A stretch of DNA of 64,000 nucleotides from Blastococcus saxobsidens DD2. GTDB taxonomy: Bacteria; Actinomycetota; Actinomycetes; Mycobacteriales; Geodermatophilaceae. The position numbers were made by a program, and so were the translations under genes. The stretch is from the NCBI RefSeq assembly GCF_000284015.1, contig NC_016943.1, positions 1,281,541 to 1,345,540 on the forward strand. Direction: 5' to 3'. The notes below the pieces were generated by a model. The model worked only from the letters and a program-made list of their open reading frames with translations, searched no databases and was not told the DNA's origin. Below are positions 1-28,009 of the stretch, piece by piece (position 1 is the first letter of the stretch; every line of letters starts with the position of its first letter).

Positions 1-1970
<1,970 letters not shown>

Positions 1971-2112
1971 AGCCGCAGCTTGTCATGCGGGGACGACGGT
2001 CCGCCCGCCCGTACGCGGGCCTCCCCGGGGAACAAGCCCACCCCCACCTGGCTTGCCACCAGCAGAGACGGCCCCGGGCGCGCCTGCCCGGGCCACGGAA
2101 CGAGGAGAACGC

Positions 2113-2775
2113 ATGACCGACGCAGTGCAGAGCGCCCCCACCAAGGCCCGCGTGGACTTCTGGTTCGACCCGCTGTGCCCGTGGGCCTGGCTGACCAGCC
2201 GCTGGGTGCTGGAGGCGGCCAAGGTGCGCGACATCGACCTGCACTGGCACGTCATGTCCCTCGCCGTCCTCAACCGCGGACGGGACTTGTCCGAGGACTA
2301 CCAGGAGATGATGAAGCAGGCGATCGGGCCGGTCCGGGTCGCGACCGCCGCCGCCCAGCAGCACGGCGACGAGGTGCTCGGGGACCTCTACACCGCCATG
2401 GGCACGCTGCGGCACCACGAGGGCCGCGAGCTGGAGGAGATCATCGCCCCCGCGCTCGAGCGGGTCGGTCTGCCGGCGTCGCTGGCCGAGGCCGCCACCT
2501 CGACGGAGTACGACGAGGTGCTGGAGAAGAGCCACCACGCGGGCATGGACCCGGTCGGCGACGACGTCGGCACGCCGGTCATGCACATCGACGGGGTCGC
2601 CTTCTTCGGCCCGGTCATCAGCAAGGTGCCCACCGGGGAGGAGGCCGGCAGGGCGTTCGACGGCGCGGTCCTGCTGGCGAACCTGCCCGACTTCTGGGAG
2701 CTCAAGCGCACCCGGCTCTCCGGCCCCGACATGGACTCCGTCCCGGCCGATGCCCTGGAGCTCACCCGCCGCTGA
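2113..2775 (+). CDS. DsbA-family oxidoreductase, mycothiol-dependent nitroreductase type
   Basis: 220-residue thioredoxin-fold protein of the DsbA/2-hydroxychromene isomerase type, resembling mycobacterial Rv2466c, which uses mycothiol. The active-site stretch near residue 20 reads DPLCPWAW, so only the first cysteine of the usual CPWC is present, which favours a monothiol or mycothiol-linked mechanism. A cis-Pro motif (GTPV) is visible near residue 155. The ATG at 2113 follows a good ribosome site (ACGAGGAGAAC). A strong hairpin lies just after the stop. Function in mycothiol redox or nitro-reduction is inferred from family. Confidence 0.85.
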
Positions 2776-2780
2776 CCCCT

Positions 2781-2806
2781 CCCGCACTCATGGACATGAG
2801 TGCGGG
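2781..2806. terminator. Near-perfect 12-bp palindrome after the DsbA-like gene
   Basis: CCCGCACTCATG and its exact reverse complement are separated by two bases, just after the stop at 2775 and before the GTG at 2834. No T tract follows, as is common in high-GC actinobacteria. A rho-independent-like terminator is the simplest reading; the symmetry could also be an operator for the following gene. Confidence 0.55.
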
Positions 2807-2833
2807 TCCGGTGGGGTGCGGCATGCTGTCGGG

Positions 2834-3595
2834 GTGCCGCACCCCACCCGCCAGCGCATCTTCATCTCCGGGGCCAGCTCCGGCCTGGGCGAGGGCATGG
2901 CCCGCCGGTTCGCGGCCATGGGCCGCGACCTCGCCCTCTGCGCCCGCCGCCTCGAGCGGCTCGAGGCGCTCCAGGCCGAGCTGCGGTCCGCCCACCCGGG
3001 AATCCGGGTCGAGGTCGCGGCCATGGACGTCGACGACCCGCGATCGGTGGCCACCGTCTTCTCCGAGCTGGCCGACCGGCTCGGCGGCTTCGACCGGGTG
3101 ATCGTCAACGCCGGCATCGGCAAGGGCGCCTCGGTGGGCACCGGGGGAGAGGCGGCCAACCGCGCCGTCCTGCACACGAACGTGCTGGGCTCGCACGCCC
3201 AGTGCGAGGCGGCGATGGAGCTGTTCCGCCGCCAGGGGATGGGTCACCTGGTGCTCATCTCGTCGGTGGCCTCGGTCCGCGGCATGCCCGGCAGCCGGAC
3301 CGCCTACGGGGCGAGCAAGGCGGCACTCAACGCACTGGCCGAGGGCATCCGCTCCGACGTCTACGGGTCGCAGATCGAGGTCTCCACGATCCTGCCCGGC
3401 TACATCGCCACCGACATCAACGTCGGCCGGCGCGGACCGCTCACCGTGGGCCTGGACAAGGGCGTCGACGCGCTCACCGAGGTGATCGAGCGGGAGCCGG
3501 TGCGCGGCTACGTGCCCCCGTTCCCCTGGCGCCCGGTGGCCCGCCTGCTCCGGGTGCTGCCGCTGTCGGTCGTCCGGCGGGTCACCGGCTCCTAG
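2834..3595 (+). CDS. Short-chain dehydrogenase/reductase (SDR)
   Basis: 253-residue classical SDR. The nucleotide-binding motif GASSGLGEG is near the N-terminus, NAG sits in the middle, and the catalytic Ser (ISSVASV) and YGASK (Tyr-x3-Lys) are intact. Substrate is not predictable. The GTG start at 2834 places the Rossmann motif at the usual distance; an upstream ATG at 2750 would overlap the previous gene and the palindrome. Cytoplasmic, monocistronic by spacing. Confidence 0.9.
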   Translation: MPHPTRQRIFISGASSGLGEGMARRFAAMGRDLALCARRLERLEALQAELRSAHPGIRVEVAAMDVDDPRSVATVFSELADRLGGFDRVIVNAGIGKGASVGTGGEAANRAVLHTNVLGSHAQCEAAMELFRRQGMGHLVLISSVASVRGMPGSRTAYGASKAALNALAEGIRSDVYGSQIEVSTILPGYIATDINVGRRGPLTVGLDKGVDALTEVIEREPVRGYVPPFPWRPVARLLRVLPLSVVRRVTGS

Positions 3596-3654
3596 AGGGA
3601 CCCCGTCCTCCTCACCCCGCGCAGGCTCGCGGCGAGCCTCCGGATGGAGCCTGA

Positions 3655-4332
3655 CTACCAGCAGATGCGCATCGGCCGGCCCCGGCTGTCGGTCGTGCCG
3701 TCCCCGATGCACTCGCCCGCATCGCGGGCCAGCCGGTGTGCCGACCAGGCAGCGGCGCAGGCGTCCAGGGCATCGATCACCGGGACGCCGACGGGGGCCC
3801 CGGCGAGTGCGGTCTCGACGTCCATCACCGCACGCAGCGCGTGCAGCCGCTGCATCGTGCCGCGCGCACTGCCCTTCCGGTCCCGGACGGCGCGATCGAG
3901 GGCGCGGAAGGCCAGCTCCGGGTGCACCTCGACCACCCGGTCGGTGGGCGGGTCACCGAGTGCGTCGTCGAGGTCGCGGATGGCCTTCACCAGCTGGAAG
4001 GCCTGGGCGGAGGGCGCGCGGGGGGGAACCGTCGCCGCCCGCGACAGCCGGCGCGCCTCGGCGTAGTCGTCGGTGGCCAGCACCGCGCGCACCGGCGTCG
4101 GGAAGACCGAGCCGGCCGCGCCCAGGCCCTTGAGGCGGTCAGCCGCCGCCACGTCGCACGCACGGACCCCGTCGTCCGAGAGCCCGATCGGCATGTCGAT
4201 CGCGATCAGCTCGACGTCGGGGACGCCGAGCACCGCGGCGACGTCGTCCAGGACCAGCAAGCGCACCGACCGCTCCCGCAGCAGCGCTCCCACCCAGCGT
4301 CCCCGCCAACCGTCGACCCCCAGGACCGCCAC
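3655..4332 (-). CDS. DUF429 family protein
   Basis: 225 residues. It starts with GVDGWRGRW and has a conserved AIDMPIGL block near residue 45, both typical of DUF429 proteins, which have an RNase H-like nuclease fold by family annotation. No biochemical function is established. It diverges from rpiB with only 26 bp between start codons, so the promoters must overlap. Confidence 0.8.
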   Translation of the reverse strand: MAVLGVDGWRGRWVGALLRERSVRLLVLDDVAAVLGVPDVELIAIDMPIGLSDDGVRACDVAAADRLKGLGAAGSVFPTPVRAVLATDDYAEARRLSRAATVPPRAPSAQAFQLVKAIRDLDDALGDPPTDRVVEVHPELAFRALDRAVRDRKGSARGTMQRLHALRAVMDVETALAGAPVGVPVIDALDACAAAWSAHRLARDAGECIGDGTTDSRGRPMRICW

Positions 4333-4358
4333 GGCGGGAGCCTGTCAGACTCGCCGGC

Positions 4359-4850
4359 ATGCGCGTCTTCATCGGCACCGACCACGCCGGCCTGGAGTTC
4401 AAGGAGCACCTGAAGCAGGTGCTCGCCGAGGCCGGTCACGAGCCGGTCGACTGCGGCGCCTTCGAGTACGACGCACAGGACGACTACCCGCCGTTCTGCT
4501 TCGAGGTGGGGGAGCGGACGGTCGCCGAGCCGGGCTCGCTCGGCGTCGTCATCGGCGGGTCGGGCAACGGCGAGCAGATGGCCGCCAACAAGGTGCCCGG
4601 GGTCCGCGCCGCGCTGGTGTGGAACACCGCCACCGCACAGCTGGCCCGGGAGCACAACGACGCCAACGTGGTCTCCATCGGCGCTCGTCAGCACAGCGAC
4701 GAGGAGGCCGCGGCGCTGGTGCTGGAGTTCCTGAAGACCCCGTTCAGCGGGGACGAGCGGCACGTCCGCCGGATCGGCATCATCAGCGACTACGAGCGCG
4801 ACCGGCACCGCCCGGCCGGCGGCCTGCCCACCCGCTCCGCGCACCCCTGA
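4359..4850 (+). CDS. rpiB: Ribose-5-phosphate isomerase B
   Basis: 163 residues of the RpiB/LacAB family, interconverting ribose-5-phosphate and ribulose-5-phosphate in the pentose phosphate pathway. The phosphate-binding N-terminus (GTDHAG) and the GGSGNGEQMAANK block are intact. The general-base position often occupied by Cys is Ser in GGSGNG, as in many actinobacterial RpiB. The C-terminus has about 20 extra basic residues. ATG chosen directly after a short divergent spacer. Confidence 0.93.
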   Translation: MRVFIGTDHAGLEFKEHLKQVLAEAGHEPVDCGAFEYDAQDDYPPFCFEVGERTVAEPGSLGVVIGGSGNGEQMAANKVPGVRAALVWNTATAQLAREHNDANVVSIGARQHSDEEAAALVLEFLKTPFSGDERHVRRIGIISDYERDRHRPAGGLPTRSAHP

Positions 4851-4854
4851 CCCG

Positions 4855-6099
4855 TCAGAACGAGTCCGGGCACCACGGCGTGACCGGCCAGCCGAACGCC
4901 GCGCTGGCCAGCGTGACCGCGCCCGGGCTGACCTCGGTGACGCGGCCGGCCGCCTGCAGCGTGGCCAGCGAGACGCCACCCAGGTAGGCGGCCGACAGCT
5001 CCTCGATCCCGAGCACGATGTCGGGGTCGCGGTCGGTGCGGCCGCAGTACCCGCCGGCCGGGTGGCCGGACAGCCGCCAGCGGCCGTCGTTCCACGGGCA
5101 GAACGGGTCCCGCACCTCGAGCACCAGGTCGATCGGCGTCGGGTAGCGGCGGGTGGCCAGCGCCCGGTCGACGTCGACCAGCCGGACCCAGAGCCCGTCG
5201 ACCGGCGTGCTGTGCAGCGCACGGCCGTCGGTCACCAGCCAGCGCAGCGGGTCGTCCGGGGAGGACGCCTGGTACTTCAGCGTGCGGACGAGGTCGACCG
5301 ACAGGAGGAGCTGCCAGAGCGCGGCGTAGGCCGGGGTGCTGGTCGCCCGCACCTCCTCGACGATCAGCGTGCCGTCGGGCTCACCGGTGTCGGTCCAGGA
5401 GTCCGTCACCCGGTACGTGGCGTACCCGGTGACCGTGCCGTCGGCCTCCCGGTGCAGCAGGTACCGGCGGGCCGTCGCGCCCTTGCGCTGGGACGGGTCG
5501 TCGCGCAGCTGCCGGTCCCACCAGCGCTCGTCGCGCGCCATGTTCCCGGGCACGAACCGGTGCACCGCCCGGTGCACGGCCACGGCGGCGGGCCGGTACT
5601 CCTCGACGGAGACCTGCTCCACCCGGCCCGTCCCCAGGTCGACGTCCGGCCGCAGCCGCAGCCGTTCCGTGCGGCCGGAGAAGCGGGCCTCCACGGTCGC
5701 CGGCGCGTAGCCGAAGCGGCCGTAGATCGGGTACTCGGCCGCCCAGAGCCCGGCCACCGGCTCCCGCTGCTGCTCGTGCAGCTCGGTGAGCTGGCGGCGC
5801 ATGATCGCGGTGAGCACGCCGCGCCGGCGGTGGGTCGGCGCGACCGTGACCCAGGTGACCCCGGCGCAGGGCACCACCGCGCCGGGGACGGTGAGGGTGC
5901 GGCTGTAGATGCCGGCGGTCGCGGCCACCCGGTCGCCGTCCCACAGTGCCAGGGACCGGTCGAGCTCGGCCACCGGCGACGGGCGCTCGGCGAAGTCGGC
6001 GGGCGGATCCTCGGCGAACACGGCATGCATGGCCTCGGTGAAGGCCGGCCACTCGTCCGCGGTGATCGGGCGCAGCTGGGAGAAGACGTCGTCGGCCAC
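4855..6099 (-). CDS. GNAT N-acetyltransferase, Eis-like
   Basis: 414 residues with the Eis layout: an N-terminal GNAT domain with the acetyl-CoA motif VAPTHRRRGVLTAIM near residue 88, a central second GNAT-like domain, and a C-terminal SCP2-like domain after about residue 300 that ends at a terminal carboxylate (WCPDSF). Eis proteins acetylate amines such as aminoglycosides or protein lysines; the substrate here is unknown. Ends 4 bp after rpiB, convergently. Confidence 0.85.
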   Translation of the reverse strand: MADDVFSQLRPITADEWPAFTEAMHAVFAEDPPADFAERPSPVAELDRSLALWDGDRVAATAGIYSRTLTVPGAVVPCAGVTWVTVAPTHRRRGVLTAIMRRQLTELHEQQREPVAGLWAAEYPIYGRFGYAPATVEARFSGRTERLRLRPDVDLGTGRVEQVSVEEYRPAAVAVHRAVHRFVPGNMARDERWWDRQLRDDPSQRKGATARRYLLHREADGTVTGYATYRVTDSWTDTGEPDGTLIVEEVRATSTPAYAALWQLLLSVDLVRTLKYQASSPDDPLRWLVTDGRALHSTPVDGLWVRLVDVDRALATRRYPTPIDLVLEVRDPFCPWNDGRWRLSGHPAGGYCGRTDRDPDIVLGIEELSAAYLGGVSLATLQAAGRVTEVSPGAVTLASAAFGWPVTPWCPDSF

Positions 6100-6422
6100 G
6101 GGTGCTGTCTACCTGGCGGGGCCGACAGGATGCCAACGAGTTCCGGCGGTCAGCCCCGGAGATCGGCGAGCGTGGCCGGGAAGCGGCGGTGGCTGAGGCC
6201 TGGCACCGGCGGGCGGAGGGACCCATCCCGGTGGCCGGCCGGTTCCGGGTCGGGCTGACCCGACTGCCGCTCCGTCGTCATCTCGGCGCGGATGGTCCCC
6301 GCCGCGCGGGGGCGGTGTCCAGCCACCGGGCCGGTTGCCATCGCCCGCTAGGCTCGGACTCTCCGACGCCGTCGTCGCCGTGCTCCGCGCACCGTCGGCG
6401 TGCCCGACCGACGGAGGCTCCC
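6100..6422. other. Divergent intergenic region
   Basis: About 320 bp between the divergent starts of the Eis-like gene and the lipoprotein gene. A start upstream of 6423 would be in frame but lacks any protein-like character, so the stretch is read as promoter DNA for both genes. No operator or RNA element was recognised. Confidence 0.4.
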
Positions 6423-8123
6423 GTGCGCTCTCGCGCGTTCCCGCTCGTGCTCAGCGCCACCCTGCTCGCCGCCTGCACGTCCTCGTCCGGAGAGGAGCCG
6501 GACGAGGGCGCGACCGAGGCCCCGGTCGCCGAGGTCGCGGTCTCCGCGCCCGACGAGGCCCTGACCGTCGTCGCCGACACCGATCCGGTCGGCTCGGCGA
6601 TCGGCACCAGCCGGGCGCTGTTCGACTCCGCCGACGTGGCGGTGCTCGCGGCCGAGGACGACCGTCCCGGGATGCTGCTGGGCGCCTCGGCGGCGGTGGC
6701 GCTCGGCGTCCCGTTGCTGGTCACCACCGGCCAGGCGGCACCGGAGCCGGTGACCGCCGAGCTCGAGCGGCTCGGTGTCGACACGCTGCTCGCCGTCGGC
6801 GAGGCCGCCGGTGCGGTGCCGGAGAGTGGCCCGGAGGTCGTGGTGGTCGACGCGGACGCCGGCGCCGTCGCCGCGGTGATCGGGACGGACCTGGCCGAGG
6901 GCGAGCCGGTGCCGGCCGACGGAGCGGCCGGGGCCGTGGCGGCGCTCGATGCGGAGGCTCCCGTGGCGCTGCAGCCGGACGCCGGGGCCCCGGACGCCGA
7001 GACCGAGACCGAGGCCGAGACGACCGAGGCCGAGGAGACCGAGCCGGCCACCACGGACGAGGTCCTGCCGGAGGTGGACCGTCCCGAGCCGCTCGAGGAC
7101 ACGATGGTGCTGGCGACGGGTCTTCCGGAGTCGGTGGCCGGGATCGCGACCGCCCGGGCGGCCGGCGCGCGCGTGCTGCTGACCGGGGGGACGACCGACC
7201 CGCGTGCGTCCGAGGCGGTCGTGGACGCCATGGCCGAGCAGTCGCCGGAAACGGTCGTCGCGCTCGGGGCGGGCTTCGCCGCCGAGGACGGGCTGGACTG
7301 GAAGGTGGCCACGGCCGCCACCGGGGTCGAGCTCCCGGGGGGCGGGCAGCTGCTCTTCCCCGGCCGGCTGCTGGTCGCCCTCTACGGGCACCCCGGCACC
7401 GGCGCCCTCGGCCTGATGGGGGAGCAGCCCCTGGAGGCGGCCATCGAGCGGGCGCGGGCGCACGCCGCCCCGTACGAACCGCTGGTCGACGAGACCGTCG
7501 TGCCGACGTTCGAGATCATCGCGACCATCGCCTCGTCGTCGGCCGGCGCCGACGGCGACTACTCCAACGAGGCCGACATCGAGATGCTCCGGCCCTGGGT
7601 CGAGGCGGCGGGGGAGGCCGGGATGTACGTCGTCCTGGACCTCCAGCCCGGGCGCACCGACTTCGTCACCCAGGCGGAGCTGTACCGGCCGCTGCTGGAG
7701 ATGCCGCACGTCGGGCTGGCCCTCGATCCCGAGTGGCGGCTGGGGCCGAACGAGGTGCACCTGGTCCAGATCGGCTCGGTCGGGATCGAGGAGGTCAACC
7801 GGGTGGTGCACTGGCTGGCCGACCTGACGAGGGAGAACCGGCTGCCGCAGAAGCTGCTCGTGCTGCACCAGTTCCGGCTCGACATGATCCCCGGCCGCGA
7901 GCGGCTGGACATGAGCCGCGACGAGCTGGCGATCATGGTGCACGCCGACGGCCAGGGTGGGCAGGGTGCCAAGCAGAGCACCTGGGAGGTGCTGCGCCGG
8001 GATGCGCCCGAGGGGCTGCGGTGGGGATGGAAGAACTTCTACGACGAGGACATCCCGATGCTCACCCCGGAGCAGACGATCAGTGACGTGGAGCCCGACC
8101 CGGAGCTGATCACCTACCAGTAG
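6423..8123 (+). CDS. Secreted lipoprotein with cell-wall-binding-like repeats
   Basis: 566 residues. A short signal peptide ends in a lipobox (SATLLAAC, Cys18), so it is likely lipid-anchored outside the membrane. Residues about 60-150 and 215-320 look like cell-wall-binding repeat 2 units (VAVLAAEDDRPG..., GVPLLVTTG, VDTLLAVGEAAG), separated by an acidic Thr/Glu linker near residue 200. The C-terminal 200 residues form a separate globular domain with conserved-looking YVVLDLQPG and LVLHQF stretches; this resembles a TIM-barrel hydrolase-like region but no catalytic set is certain. GTG 6423 chosen because it places the signal peptide first. Confidence 0.75.
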   Translation: MRSRAFPLVLSATLLAACTSSSGEEPDEGATEAPVAEVAVSAPDEALTVVADTDPVGSAIGTSRALFDSADVAVLAAEDDRPGMLLGASAAVALGVPLLVTTGQAAPEPVTAELERLGVDTLLAVGEAAGAVPESGPEVVVVDADAGAVAAVIGTDLAEGEPVPADGAAGAVAALDAEAPVALQPDAGAPDAETETEAETTEAEETEPATTDEVLPEVDRPEPLEDTMVLATGLPESVAGIATARAAGARVLLTGGTTDPRASEAVVDAMAEQSPETVVALGAGFAAEDGLDWKVATAATGVELPGGGQLLFPGRLLVALYGHPGTGALGLMGEQPLEAAIERARAHAAPYEPLVDETVVPTFEIIATIASSSAGADGDYSNEADIEMLRPWVEAAGEAGMYVVLDLQPGRTDFVTQAELYRPLLEMPHVGLALDPEWRLGPNEVHLVQIGSVGIEEVNRVVHWLADLTRENRLPQKLLVLHQFRLDMIPGRERLDMSRDELAIMVHADGQGGQGAKQSTWEVLRRDAPEGLRWGWKNFYDEDIPMLTPEQTISDVEPDPELITYQ

Positions 8124-11369: not shown

Positions 11370-12344
11370 TCACTGGGGACCGGCGATGCCGAGCAGTCCT
11401 TCCAGGTGGCGCAGGCGCGCGGGAACGGGGCATCCGGTCGCATCCAGGATGCGGTTCATCATCTCGAAGTTCGCGCACACGCCAACCGCAGCGGCGGTCA
11501 CCCGCCTGTCGGCCACGCGGATCAGTGCGGAACGGCTCTCGTCGAGCCGTTCACCGGTCGCCATGGCCGTCGCGAGATCGCGGAGCTCGGCTCCCCAGGC
11601 GATTCCGGGGTCGATGCCGGCGTCCGCGACCGCGCGGAGATCCACGGAGGTCCCGGTCGTCGTCTGCACACTCGCACGGAGCATGTCGGCGTGCGCGAGC
11701 AGCTAGTAGAAGCAGTTGTTGAGCAGCGAGACACGTGCGGCCAGGAGCTCCATCTGTGCGCGGGACAGCCCGTCCTGGTACGCGAGATCGGCCATCTGCT
11801 CCGTGCTCAGGTAGAGGGCGGCATGGAGCCGGTTCCGGGCCTCGTTCTCCGCGGGGACAGCCGAGAGGGCGTACAGGGCGCCGTCCTCGGGGTCCGTGGG
11901 GACGAACGCATTTCGCCACCGGACCTGCCCGTTGCGCCGGCGGCTGGCCTCGCCCGGCACGGGGTCGGGGAGCGGCTCCTCCGCGGATCCGACTCCTCGG
12001 ACGTAGGAGTCCACTGCCGCCAGCCTGCTGACGACGCCGACGACCTCGACGTACTGCTCGGTCTCCAGACCCCGGGCGCGCAGGTCGGACACCCACTCCC
12101 GCGTGATGAGGTCTGCGGCGGCCGACACCGAGTGCGCGGCCTCGGTCAGCAGCGGCGGGAGGTCCGTGTCGGCGTCGGTGAACGAGCGTGCGGCCCGCGC
12201 CTCCCGGGCCACGGCCACCCGCTCGCGTCCTGACAGCCAGGTCCCGGGCCGTGCCAGTCGTACCCACTCGCGGCGCAGCTCAGCCCGGACCCCGTCGGGC
12301 ACGGGCAGCCCGGCACCGGTCAGCTCGAACGCCACCTGCGACAC
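11370..12344 (-). CDS. AhpD-like peroxidase protein with in-frame UAG at the catalytic Cys (candidate selenoprotein)
   Basis: Read through the UAG at 11705-11703, this is one 324-residue alkylhydroperoxidase/carboxymuconolactone decarboxylase-type protein ending at a TGA (11370-11372). Without readthrough it stops after 213 residues at NNCFY. The AhpD catalytic set is Glu, then Cys 12 residues on, second Cys 3 further, His 4 further. Here E199, C211, UAG at 214 and H218 match that spacing exactly, so UAG replaces the peroxidatic cysteine. The downstream half (LLAHADMLRAS...) stays in the same frame with family-like sequence. A hairpin begins immediately after the UAG. UAG-encoded selenocysteine has been reported in Geodermatophilus and Blastococcus. 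Alternatives are a plain nonsense mutation or a sequencing error. A terminator separates it from the upstream redox operon. Confidence 0.7.
11664..11702 (-). promoter_or_regulatory. bSECIS-like stem-loop immediately after the UAG
   Basis: On the mRNA strand, the 13 nt after UAG form a 5' arm closed by GCACG pairing with CGUGC. CUC/GAG and CUG/CAG pairs extend it, with GC and UGUG bulges, around an 11-nt apical loop that contains guanosines. Bacterial SECIS elements are irregular stem-loops just 3' of the Sec codon, inside the coding region. Position and form fit; the loop sequence was not compared with a covariance model. Confidence 0.5.
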
Positions 12345-12395: not shown

Positions 12396-13601
12396 TCAAC
12401 CGAGGTCCGCGATCCGGGTCGTGGGATGGAAGGCGGCCCAGGCGAACCAGAACGTGTCCAGGTGGTCCACCGGTTCCAGGCGGGTGCCGGCCAGGGGTCC
12501 GTCGACCGCCTGGCCCAGGACGTTCCACCGGGAGCCGGTCCCGGCGTCGACGAAGTGGTCGCCGTCCCGGGTGAACCGCAGGGGGTCCCCGTCCACGACC
12601 GGGTCGAACGCCCCGGTGGCACCGACCGAGCGGCCCTGGTGCACCCGCTGTTCGTCCAGAGGCGAGCGCAGGCCCTCGACGGCCCAGACGACGACGGGAC
12701 CGCCGCCGACGGTCAGCTCCACCACGCCGGTCTCGACCAGATCGGCCAGCGGCACCGCGACCGGGTCCTCCGCCGCGCCGAGCCCGGCGACCCGTTGCAT
12801 GGCCGGCAGCCGGGGGTCGGGCTCGCCCTCGAAGAGGAACGGGGATCCGTCGGGGGAGTCGTAGCCGGTGTAGGGGTTGGCGCCGTAGTCACGCGAGACG
12901 CCGGTCTCCCGGCTGAGCACCCATCCGTCCGGGTTGGCCTGCTGCCACTGGGCCCAGGTGACGGTCTGCACGGGGATCCGCTCGAGCTCGGCGCCCGCGA
13001 GCACCCCGGCGATCGCCCGGCCTTCGATCTGGGAGAACAGCGACTCGGTCTGCCGGTCGTACATCACCAGGTCCGAGCGGTAGAGCAGGCCGGAGGTGCC
13101 GAACGTCAGCACCCGGTCGCCGAGCCGCCGGTCGAACGCCAGCGCCGAGTTGCACAGCGGGCAGTACGTGACGACGACGGGCCGGCCGTCGATGCTGTCG
13201 TTGACGACCTCGTGCCAGATCATGATCCGCACGGGATAGGCCCGGGCCGTCTCGCCGATGGCGGGGGCGAGCACGGGCTCGTCGGGGGTCAGCCAGTTGA
13301 CGCTCGCGGCCGGGACGAAACGGGGAGTGTCGATCGGCGGTATCCCGTCCGGCGGTGGACCTCCGCTGATCACCTCGGCCGGATCGACCAGCGGCTCGGG
13401 CAGCGCCGGGTCGTCGATGCGCTCCAGTGCGGAGGGGACCTCCTCCGGCGGGGAGCCGGTGACCTCCTCGAGCAGCACGGAGTTCGTGGACACGATGCCC
13501 GTCTCCGTGCCGGCGCTCGCATCCGTCGGGTCGTCGGCCGGGCTGCCGCAGGCAGCCAGCAGCAGCAGCGCCGTCGCCAGCAAAGACGCGCGGCGGCTCA
13601 T
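12396..13601 (-). CDS. DUF3179 domain lipoprotein
   Basis: 401 residues. Signal peptide with lipobox (LLLLAAC, Cys18), so extracytoplasmic. The DUF3179 core is visible: a VNWLTPDEPV block, an IMIWHEVVND motif and the YCPLCNSALAF cysteine pair, then a conserved FGTSGLLYRSDLVMYDR stretch. The function of DUF3179 is unknown. Its start overlaps the end of the CcdA gene by 4 bp, and the next upstream genes are CcdA, TlpA-like and thioredoxin-like proteins. That context suggests the CxxC pair may be a client of extracytoplasmic thiol reduction (inference). Confidence 0.85.
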   Translation of the reverse strand: MSRRASLLATALLLLAACGSPADDPTDASAGTETGIVSTNSVLLEEVTGSPPEEVPSALERIDDPALPEPLVDPAEVISGGPPPDGIPPIDTPRFVPAASVNWLTPDEPVLAPAIGETARAYPVRIMIWHEVVNDSIDGRPVVVTYCPLCNSALAFDRRLGDRVLTFGTSGLLYRSDLVMYDRQTESLFSQIEGRAIAGVLAGAELERIPVQTVTWAQWQQANPDGWVLSRETGVSRDYGANPYTGYDSPDGSPFLFEGEPDPRLPAMQRVAGLGAAEDPVAVPLADLVETGVVELTVGGGPVVVWAVEGLRSPLDEQRVHQGRSVGATGAFDPVVDGDPLRFTRDGDHFVDAGTGSRWNVLGQAVDGPLAGTRLEPVDHLDTFWFAWAAFHPTTRIADLG

Positions 13602-14456
13602 CGGAGGGACTCCACGGCCCGGCGGCTCCGGGATCGGCGGAGCAGCAGCACCAGCACCACGACTGTGACCAGAGCGACGGCGACCAGCCCTTCCGCACCG
13701 AGGCCGGCGACCCAGCGGCTGAGCGCGGCCTGCACCTGGACGGCGGCCGACACGACCGGGTCGCTGGTCGACCGGCCCGAGAGCACCCGGATCTCGAACC
13801 ACCCGTACCAGGCGACGTACGCGCCGGCCAGCACGAGCAGCAGACCGCTGCCCCGGCTGATCAGCGCCGCGGCACGGCGCATCGAACGGACGACGGACGT
13901 ACGGGCGAGCGCGACGGCGACGCTCAGGGCGAGGACCACCGTGCCCATGCCGACCGCGTAGACGACGAAGGTGAGGACGACACCGAACGAACCGCCGGCC
14001 CGCAGGGCACCGGCGGTGACGGCCAGGAAGGGAGCCAGCGTGCAGGACAGGGACGCCAGGGCGAACGACACCCCGAAGCCGACCTGCGTCGTCCACCGCG
14101 ACGTCGGTGGCCTGCCGCGGCCGGCCAATCCCGGCACGGCCACGCTCCGGCCGGCTGCCAGCCACAGCCCGATGAGCACGAGGGCGACGCCGATCGCCAC
14201 CGTGAGCACCGGCAGGTACTGCTGCAGCGTGGACAGGACGGGCATCAGGACGAGGCCGACCGTGCCGAAAGACGAGGACGAAGCCGGTGGTCATCCCCAG
14301 TGCGAATCGCACCGCTCTGCCTGCGGCTGCGCCGCGGTCGGGCTCGGGTGCGGCCACGAGCAGGCCGAGGTAGGCGGGCAGCAGCACGAACCCGCACGGG
14401 TTGAAGGCAGCCACCGCTCCAGCCAGCAGTGCCAGGGTGAGCAGTCCGGGGTCCAT
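13598..14456 (-). pseudogene. ccdA: CcdA-type thiol transporter, single-base frameshift
   Basis: DsbD/CcdA-family membrane protein that carries reducing equivalents from cytoplasmic thioredoxin across the membrane. The N-terminal part reads AAFNPCGFVLLPAYLGLL with the first redox Cys. The rest, including ASLSCTLAPFLAV with the second Cys, is in another frame. One extra base in the AAA run at 14268-14270 (TTT on the mRNA strand) separates them; removing it gives an intact 285-residue protein with six or more membrane helices. Everything else is conserved, so a sequencing error or a very recent mutation is likely. If the frameshift is real, the 215-residue part from 14245 could only start internally. 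Confidence 0.8.
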
Positions 14457-14462
14457 GACGGT

Positions 14463-15041
14463 CTACTCCCGGTCCAGTTCCTCGACCATGGCGCGCAGCT
14501 GCTCGCCACCCAGCGAGCCCATGAAGCTCTCCGTCGTGCCGTCGCCGGTCACGAAGACGAACGCCGGCTGGGTGATCACCCCGAAGCGCTGCCACAGGCT
14601 GCCGTCCTCGTCGACGAGGTGCCGGAGACCACCGGTGCCCGTCTCGTCCACGAAGGCCTGCATCGCCTCGAGCTCGCCCCGGCCGGCCACGCCCAGCACC
14701 TCGACGCGGCCCGCGTACTCGGCCGCCACCTCGGCGACCTCGGGCGCCTCGGCCCGGCAGACGGTGCACCAGGGCGCCCAGAACCAGAGCACGACCGGCG
14801 TGCCGGCCAGCTCGGCGGCGTCGACGTTCCCGCCGTCCAGCGTGGTGCCCGAGGGGGCCAGGGCCGGGGCGGTCCCCTGCTGCGGCCCCTCCGCCACCGT
14901 TCCGCCGGCCGGCGAGGCCGGGCCGCTCCCGGTGCCCGGAGAGCAGGCGGCCGACGCGACGGCGAGTGCCGCGAGAATGGCCAACAACCGCCCTCGCACC
15001 CGTCGGTCGTGGCGCACGACGTCCTCCCTGTGCTCGGTCAA
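14463..15041 (-). CDS. TlpA-like thioredoxin lipoprotein
   Basis: 192 residues. Signal peptide and lipobox (ASAAC, Cys33) put it outside the membrane. The thioredoxin fold carries WCTVC at residues 91-95 and a cis-Pro (TQPAFVFV). It probably receives electrons from CcdA, encoded 6 bp downstream, and reduces secreted disulfides. Overlaps the upstream thioredoxin-like gene by 4 bp, so it is translationally coupled. Confidence 0.88.
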
Positions 15042-15346
15042 TTTCGGCGCCTCTCCACCAAGGCGAGCAGTTCCGCCGGCGACGGGTTGCCCAGCCAGCG
15101 CACCCGCCCGTCGACCGTGTACGTCGGGGTTCCGACCAGCCCGGCCGGGAGTGCTCGCTCCAGCGGGGTCCGGCTGAGGTCCACCACCTCGACGGCGGCA
15201 CCGGGGTGCCTGAGCAGGAGTTGCGCGACGAGCTCCCTGGCCCGTCGGCAGCTGCCGCAGCCGTCGGCGACGTATACCTGCAGGACCGGGTCCGGCGGCG
15301 GATGGGCGATCTCCGGCTCCCGCCGCGGACTCGACACATCCCTCAC
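15038..15346 (-). CDS. Small thioredoxin/glutaredoxin-like protein
   Basis: 102 residues, cytoplasmic. The redox motif CGSC is at residues 30-33, followed by a helix and a TPTY cis-Pro motif. Size and layout match glutaredoxin-like thiol proteins. It could be the cytoplasmic electron donor to CcdA in the same operon, although the family does not prove this. It follows the membrane-protein gene by 13 bp. Confidence 0.8.
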
Positions 15347-15359
15347 CGAACGGCCCGTC

Positions 15360-15749
15360 CTACGGTCGCGCGGTGCGGTGGCGGAGCATCGCCCCGACGA
15401 TCGCGCCGAGCAGCAGCCCGAAGACGAGGTGCCCGATCAGACTGTTGACAGCCATGTCGTTGACCACGAAGACGGGCATCCCCATGCGGGCCGGCATCAG
15501 CAGGAGAGGTCCCACCACCCACAGGACGGCGCCGTAGCCGAGCCCCAGCAGCGTCGCGAGGACCACGCCCTTGAGGACCGGGCCCAGCAGCACCGCGAAC
15601 GCGAGGCCGGAGACGGCGGAGATCAGCAGGTGCACGACCCAGCCCACCGCAGGGGAGCTGCTCCCCACCAGCGCCGCGACCATCGGGATCATGCCCCAGG
15701 CCTGCATCATCAGCCCGAAGACCAGACCACCGGCCAGTCCACCGGCCAC
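15360..15749 (-). CDS. Membrane protein of unknown function, four helices
   Basis: 129 residues with about four hydrophobic segments and glycine-rich helices (GGLAGGLVFGLMMQAW near the start). Resembles the YagU/DUF1440-type small membrane proteins only in general style. First gene of the redox operon. Its start lies 35 bp from the divergent Crp-like reading frame, so the promoter of one must lie inside the other gene or the regulator frame starts further in. Confidence 0.6.
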   Translation of the reverse strand: MAGGLAGGLVFGLMMQAWGMIPMVAALVGSSSPAVGWVVHLLISAVSGLAFAVLLGPVLKGVVLATLLGLGYGAVLWVVGPLLLMPARMGMPVFVVNDMAVNSLIGHLVFGLLLGAIVGAMLRHRTARP

Positions 15750-27851: not shown

Positions 27852-28009
27852 CGCGGGGCAATGAGTGAGCAGCCCAGCGGCGCACCATTGTGATTCCCGG
27901 GTATGAGGTCCTGGGCTTCGCGCTACAGGGACGGCTGCAGGCACAGTGGTATGAGCATGCTTGTTCGAACGTCCAGCGATACCGGCCCGGCACTGCGCGG
28001 TACGGCACC

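Follow-up and report, generated by a model that had tools for sequence, protein, structure and literature searches.

Recoding of UAG as selenocysteine (Sec) has been described in the Geodermatophilaceae, where a tRNA for Sec (tRNA-Sec) with anticodon CUA is reported from three genomes and the UAG-encoded selenoproteins are formate dehydrogenase (FDH), a UGSC-motif protein and AhpC (PMC5330540, citing Mukai 2016); UAG in Blastococcus is also named elsewhere (PMC5133445). The AhpD-related family NF041238 (AhpD_rel_CFYUT) is among the selenoprotein families tabulated in PMC13188914, where an entry reads ‘AhpD-related protein (hypothetical protein 1, Sargasso Sea metagenome)’, with the motif CxxU. 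In AhpD of Mycobacterium tuberculosis, Glu118, Cys130, Cys133 and His137 form the corresponding active site (PMC3141380). The locus considered here lies in a 64,000-nucleotide stretch of Blastococcus saxobsidens DD2 (positions 1281541-1345540 of a 4.88-Mb single-contig genome; hereafter the window), in which a minus-strand NF041238 gene almost certainly encodes an AhpD-fold thiol/selenol oxidoreductase with a predicted UAG-encoded catalytic Sec. Both UAG-Sec in this bacterial family, to which an earlier note on this DNA had pointed, and the selenoprotein status of NF041238 are already described; their combination was not found, nor was any AhpD-type UAG selenoprotein in the searched open-licence literature, part of which was consulted as passages.

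Read from position 12344, the minus-strand frame contains a single stop, UAG at 11705-11703, ahead of its terminator TGA at 11372-11370, and this codon occupies the second place of the CxxC/CxxU motif of a 321-codon AhpD-related gene that annotation with the standard code would split in two. In alignment the six orthologues begin at a common start three codons inside the GTG at 12344 (a GTG, at 12335, in the window and also in four of the others; ATG in the sixth), making a product of 321 residues likelier than the 324 given by the earlier note. The lone UAG in a continuous frame that the note had reported is confirmed, as is its Glu/Cys/UAG/His spacing of 12-3-4, although the numbering shifts from 199, 211, 214 and 218 to 196, 208, 211 and 215 when counted from the shared start. 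No variation is seen in any of these four columns across an alignment of 20 sequences (the window, five other UAG and 14 UGA sequences, with a 21st, the fragment L098, excluded).

Likeness to the AhpD family on both sides of the codon, also claimed earlier, is borne out by profile comparison: when the UAG is read through, the protein reaches 238.3 bits with NF041238, designated ‘(seleno)protein’ in NCBIfam (curated cut-off 175), and its two halves match separately at 157.5 and 64.6 bits (E-values 5.4e-46 and 9.4e-18). Only with the UAG read through do two further models, TIGR00778 (the AhpD core domain) and CMD of Pfam, exceed their cut-offs, CMD reaching 26.4 bits against a cut-off of 23; the upstream half alone is too weak a CMD match, at 17.2 bits. 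The structure model has a predicted local distance difference test score of 95.4 and an AhpD-like C-terminal half, and the UAG column aligns with the second Cys of CxxC in two solved AhpD relatives, 6k40 and 2pfx.

In 21 of 21 homologues the corresponding codon is a stop, TAG in all six from the family and TGA in all 15 from outside it, with Cys at the site in none of the 21; the position of the UAG is therefore beyond chance, in agreement with the earlier argument against a random nonsense mutation. Within the Geodermatophilaceae, NF041238 exceeds its cut-off in six of 112 genomes, and every match contains a single TAG: the window shares its UAG codon with Blastococcus sp. DSM 46786 (G005), Geodermatophilus chilensis (G043), Modestobacter caceresii (G085), Modestobacter sp. 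DSM 44400 (G104) and a genome bearing the genus label of the Modestobacter genomes (G089), so that three genera are represented, and the five other proteins are 71-80% identical to that of the window. In a draw of 396 genomes from the phylum, four exceed the cut-off: besides the window, with its TAG, there are three that together hold four genes, each interrupted by one TGA. A scan of genome contigs, with peptide patterns that excluded the Sec site, returned 15 loci, four from named Geodermatophilaceae (TAG) and eleven others (TGA), and no relative was found in a scan of viral contigs. Matches below the cut-off with an internal stop also occur in four further genomes of the family. Two were rejected as candidates, G060 (one TGA), in which no C-x-x-stop-x-x-x-H motif was found, and G027 (one TAA), whose frame lacks that motif at the TAA; the others, in G058 and G093, belong to genomes discussed below.

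The machinery for Sec insertion lies about 178 kb beyond the window, where selD (on the other strand), tRNA-Sec, selA and selB follow in a row. The profile scores of selD (387.7 bits), selA (418.3) and selB (293.1) are each above the curated cut-off, and the tRNA-Sec (65.3 bits; gathering score 47) stands about 30 bases ahead of the selA open reading frame (ORF), with an anticodon loop CUCUAAA that gives the anticodon CUA. RF01852 has 12 matches in the genome, two of them over the gathering score, this tRNA-Sec and one tRNA-Ser; a search with an exact pattern for the UCA anticodon arm finds nothing in the genome, the ten weaker matches not having been singly examined. SelD has Cys in the motif GCACK, at what we take to be its own variable site. 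A Guanidine-III riboswitch lies near the sel genes (L003:5448-5513). With the complete set of genes that the earlier note had asked for, a stop in every homologue and Cys in the two solved structures, its proposal that UAG serves for Sec here is supported; of the contrary signs that it named, missing Sec machinery and a non-Cys residue in homologues were looked for and not seen, and as regards the third, a sense codon on resequencing, five further genomes show the identical codon.

Across the family, SelA is detected at E-values up to 1e-60 in 109 of 112 genomes (108 over the cut-off), the three lacking it being 72-80% complete. The CUA tRNA-Sec pattern, built on family sequences and liable to miss divergent CUA tRNAs, occurs in all 75 family genomes drawn, the six carriers included, and, elsewhere in the order, in one genome (G230) of 322. 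Among 30 selA loci fetched, a CUA tRNA is seen within the short flank of 22 but not of the other eight; for three of the eight (G014, G104 and G111) a CUA tRNA is found elsewhere in the genome, in a genome-wide pattern search that did not take in G029, G067, G068, G069 and G095.

A bacterial Sec insertion sequence (bSECIS) is expected to have a loop of 3-9 nt, a stem of 4-16 bp, G in the first two loop positions, a spacing of 16-37 nt and a minimum free energy of at most -7.5 kcal/mol (PMC13188914). The hairpin downstream of the UAG agrees with this geometry, with 7 bp, the loop CGUGC and a distance of 24 nt. In an ungapped comparison of 21 sequences from the stop onwards, complementary arms enclose a 5-nt loop whose second nucleotide is G, and 128 of 147 possible pairs are formed, with all seven in 10 of 21 sequences; synonymous redrawing of the same peptides yields a mean of 75.5 pairs (standard deviation 6.7) and a maximum of 99 in 5000 redraws, and sliding the same geometry by codons yields at most 75. 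For the window, the predicted energies are -5.6 kcal/mol for the 19-nt hairpin, -7.5 for a 30-nt stretch and, for 57 nt, -12.6 with the core enforced and -17.1 when folded freely.

Several observations count against this interpretation. The stem was picked by eye on these same, mutually related sequences; the UAG sequences are near-identical in the hairpin, and singly none is significant, 6-7% of redraws reaching 7/7. Taken alone, the hairpin of the six UAG genes has -5.6 kcal/mol in four and -7.9 in two, against the published threshold of -7.5; the four core pairs appear in the minimum-energy fold (+15 to +44) of four of the six UAG sequences and 16 of the 21 overall, and several unconstrained 54-nt folds favour other pairings. 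The Foldseek E-values behind the structural likeness are weak, none being 0.001 or below, and the gene is, as the counts above indicate, rare in its bacterial family. Finally, two other gene-like ORFs of the window, at 6066-8123 (+) and 3655-4344 (-), terminate in UAG, so recoding must be context-dependent; of the 14 gene-like ORFs in the window retained by a filter on GC content at third codon positions, 11 end in UGA and three, the studied gene included, in UAG.

Stop codons are generally read through at low level, and a near-cognate tRNA could by that route place a standard residue at the UAG; in the presence of a dedicated CUA tRNA-Sec, of SelB and of the bSECIS-like hairpin, and with UGA at the site in every outside relative, this explanation is very improbable. 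Pyrrolysine has, if anything, still less to recommend it. ARAGORN labels the CUA tRNA ‘tRNA-Pyl’ because of its anticodon, and a 2013 survey records a tRNA-Pyl match in Geodermatophilus obscurus, where the other pyl genes that it scored were lacking (PMC3639795); that match may be this CUA tRNA, differently labelled. The best PylS_Cterm match in the genome, however, reaches 20 bits against a curated cut-off of 178.15, in a model able to detect its target (one of 14 control genomes over the cut-off), and the tRNA itself scores as tRNA-Sec and precedes selA; Sec codons at this site in the relatives likewise run contrary to pyrrolysine.

Termination at the UAG, which would leave a working protein of 210 residues, whether or not a second one is made downstream, would accord with the other UAG-terminated ORFs and with a downstream ATG ORF of 104 codons, but it can be given next to no credence: the shorter product would cut the CxxU motif and lose His215, and both parts are conserved as one protein with one confident model, as they are in the UGA relatives. 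The sequence downstream of the UAG is under purifying selection like the upstream part, with ratios of nonsynonymous to synonymous substitution (dN/dS) over the 15 pairs of six orthologues of 0.18-0.30 before the codon and 0.22-0.35 after it, and third codon positions the most divergent on both sides. A pseudogene or sequencing error with a chance nonsense mutation is what a stop within a gene intact elsewhere usually indicates, and a neighbouring window gene does read in two frames; this account can be dismissed with near certainty given the shared TAG in six genomes at 71-80% protein identity and the similar dN/dS on either side.

What is observed at the level of sequence is the UAG and its conservation, the Sec machinery, the hairpin and the selection past the stop, and an AhpD-type selenoprotein is the reading to which they lead. 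SelA would make Sec on the CUA-anticodon tRNA-Sec with selenophosphate provided by SelD, and SelB would bring the Sec-tRNA to ribosomes at a UAG followed by the bSECIS hairpin, while the remaining UAG codons keep terminating; insertion at residue 211 would thereby proceed as recoding does in other bacteria. The Sec211/Cys208 pair, with Glu196 and His215, may then reduce a peroxide or disulfide as in AhpD, the peroxidase-like activity and the substrate being predictions from sequence.

Other genes of the same genome appear to use the codon in the same manner: two FDH genes have UAG at the Sec site, and their hairpins are stronger than that of the window gene (-15.0 and -11.8 kcal/mol). These were retrieved with the TIGR01553 profile; among the matches listed, the 13 top rows and all 34 N-terminal pieces have one TAG, and pieces starting past the Sec site have no stop. 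TIGR01591 proved to be the wrong FDH model, its listed matches lacking an internal stop except for two with one TGA. An FDH match in another genome (G079:C12:812469-814946, minus strand; model positions 208-1004) has one TGA after the Sec site. A different AhpD-like gene with an in-frame UAG (NDCHY-UAG-TPTH) and a hairpin of its own is present in G093 (L125:3687-4289), near tRNA-Sec(CUA) and selA.

Table 1. Features of the AhpD-related locus and of related genes elsewhere (window positions unless a genome or contig is named).
Feature	Location	Strand	Description
AhpD-related (NF041238) selenoprotein gene	11370..12335	(-)	GTG start 12335-12333, in-frame UAG, TGA stop, 321-residue predicted product
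UAG codon	11703..11705	(-)	second position of CFY-U motif, residue 211; putative Sec
Active-site residues	11691..11750	(-)	Glu196 11750-11748, Cys208 11714-11712, Tyr210 11708-11706, Sec211 (predicted) 11705-11703, His215 11693-11691
bSECIS-like hairpin	11667..11685	(-)	7-bp stem, 5-nt loop CGUGC (11678-11674), UAG-to-loop 24 nt
FDH genes with UAG at Sec site	L123 2908500-2914500; L124 314000-320500 (own genome)		GGUCU-loop hairpins
UCA tRNA-Sec and UGA AhpD-like gene	L128/L129/L146, G058:C17:1-6000		

In the protein tree the six UAG sequences form one clade (100/99; 200 of 200 bootstrap trees) beside the UGA sequences. The tree has a midpoint root and four long UGA rows; for a change in the direction UGA to UAG, part of the argument is therefore that bacteria normally use UGA for Sec. 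On balance, and by a narrow preference, the gene is proposed to have entered the Geodermatophilaceae from a UGA-Sec bacterium (Acidimicrobiia-like), after which its Sec codon would have turned from UGA into UAG by two base changes, presumably by way of UAA, with the hairpin keeping its place and the UAG form then spreading patchily in the family. If correct, this rewriting would be a natural sign that SelB and the bSECIS are indifferent to which stop is recoded, and that selenoprotein genes can cross a Sec-codon barrier.

Two types of tRNA-Sec coexist in a genome with the genus label of G. chilensis (G058), which has the usual CUA form plus a UCA tRNA-Sec (81.8 bits), the UCA pattern being found in this one alone of 112 family genomes. 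The latter lies about 450 bases from an AhpD-like gene (112.6 bits against TIGR01926, cut-off 81.8) whose Sec site is UGA; after that codon, the predicted fold has a hairpin of 7 bp and the loop GUU. In the range examined, the contig has 59-65% GC at 1001-6000, a stretch with ORFs resembling transposases by eye, and 69-80% at 6001-40000; two further genomes of this genus match a 4-kb segment starting at 28001 over long stretches, at 74-86% identity (some match, mostly short, occurs in 26 of 26 genomes), so the contig is probably not wholly foreign. G058 is possibly a genome with two Sec codons, if both tRNA-Sec genes are expressed. UCA and CUA tRNA-Sec also occur together in G230, of another family of the order (82% complete, 3% contaminated), on different small contigs (L130, L134), and this pair may be contamination.

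Upstream of the selenoprotein gene, the window (12396-15749, minus strand) holds genes for a DUF3179 protein, a CcdA-like protein, a thioredoxin-like protein, a small thioredoxin-like protein and a membrane protein. The DUF3179/CcdA-like/thioredoxin-like cluster recurs in G. chilensis; the flanks examined in the remaining four carriers do not contain it. The CcdA-like gene (13598-14456, minus strand; assigned by eye) runs in two frames with a change near 14250, a frameshift or sequencing error; the G. chilensis copy is in one frame.

Compared with known systems, the window gene resembles the reported UAG selenoproteins of the Geodermatophilaceae in its CUA tRNA-Sec and its UAG at the Sec site, and differs in being an AhpD-related NF041238 protein rather than FDH, a UGSC-motif protein or AhpC (PMC5330540); one more enzyme family would join the few reported with UAG-Sec, and a small known exception to the genetic code would gain a gene. 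It belongs to the NF041238 family of PMC13188914, with the CFY-U motif and a score over the cut-off when read through, but has UAG where all 15 examined relatives outside the Geodermatophilaceae have UGA, and such matched UAG and UGA orthologues with comparable recoding hairpins make the movement of Sec between stop codons directly testable. Human Sestrin2 shares 14% identity with the window protein, a common fold being no proof of common function. The spacing of the catalytic residues is identical to that of M. tuberculosis AhpD; relative to this enzyme and to PA0269 of Pseudomonas aeruginosa (PMC3141380), the window protein has an extra N-terminal helical part, and a Sec codon replaces the second Cys.
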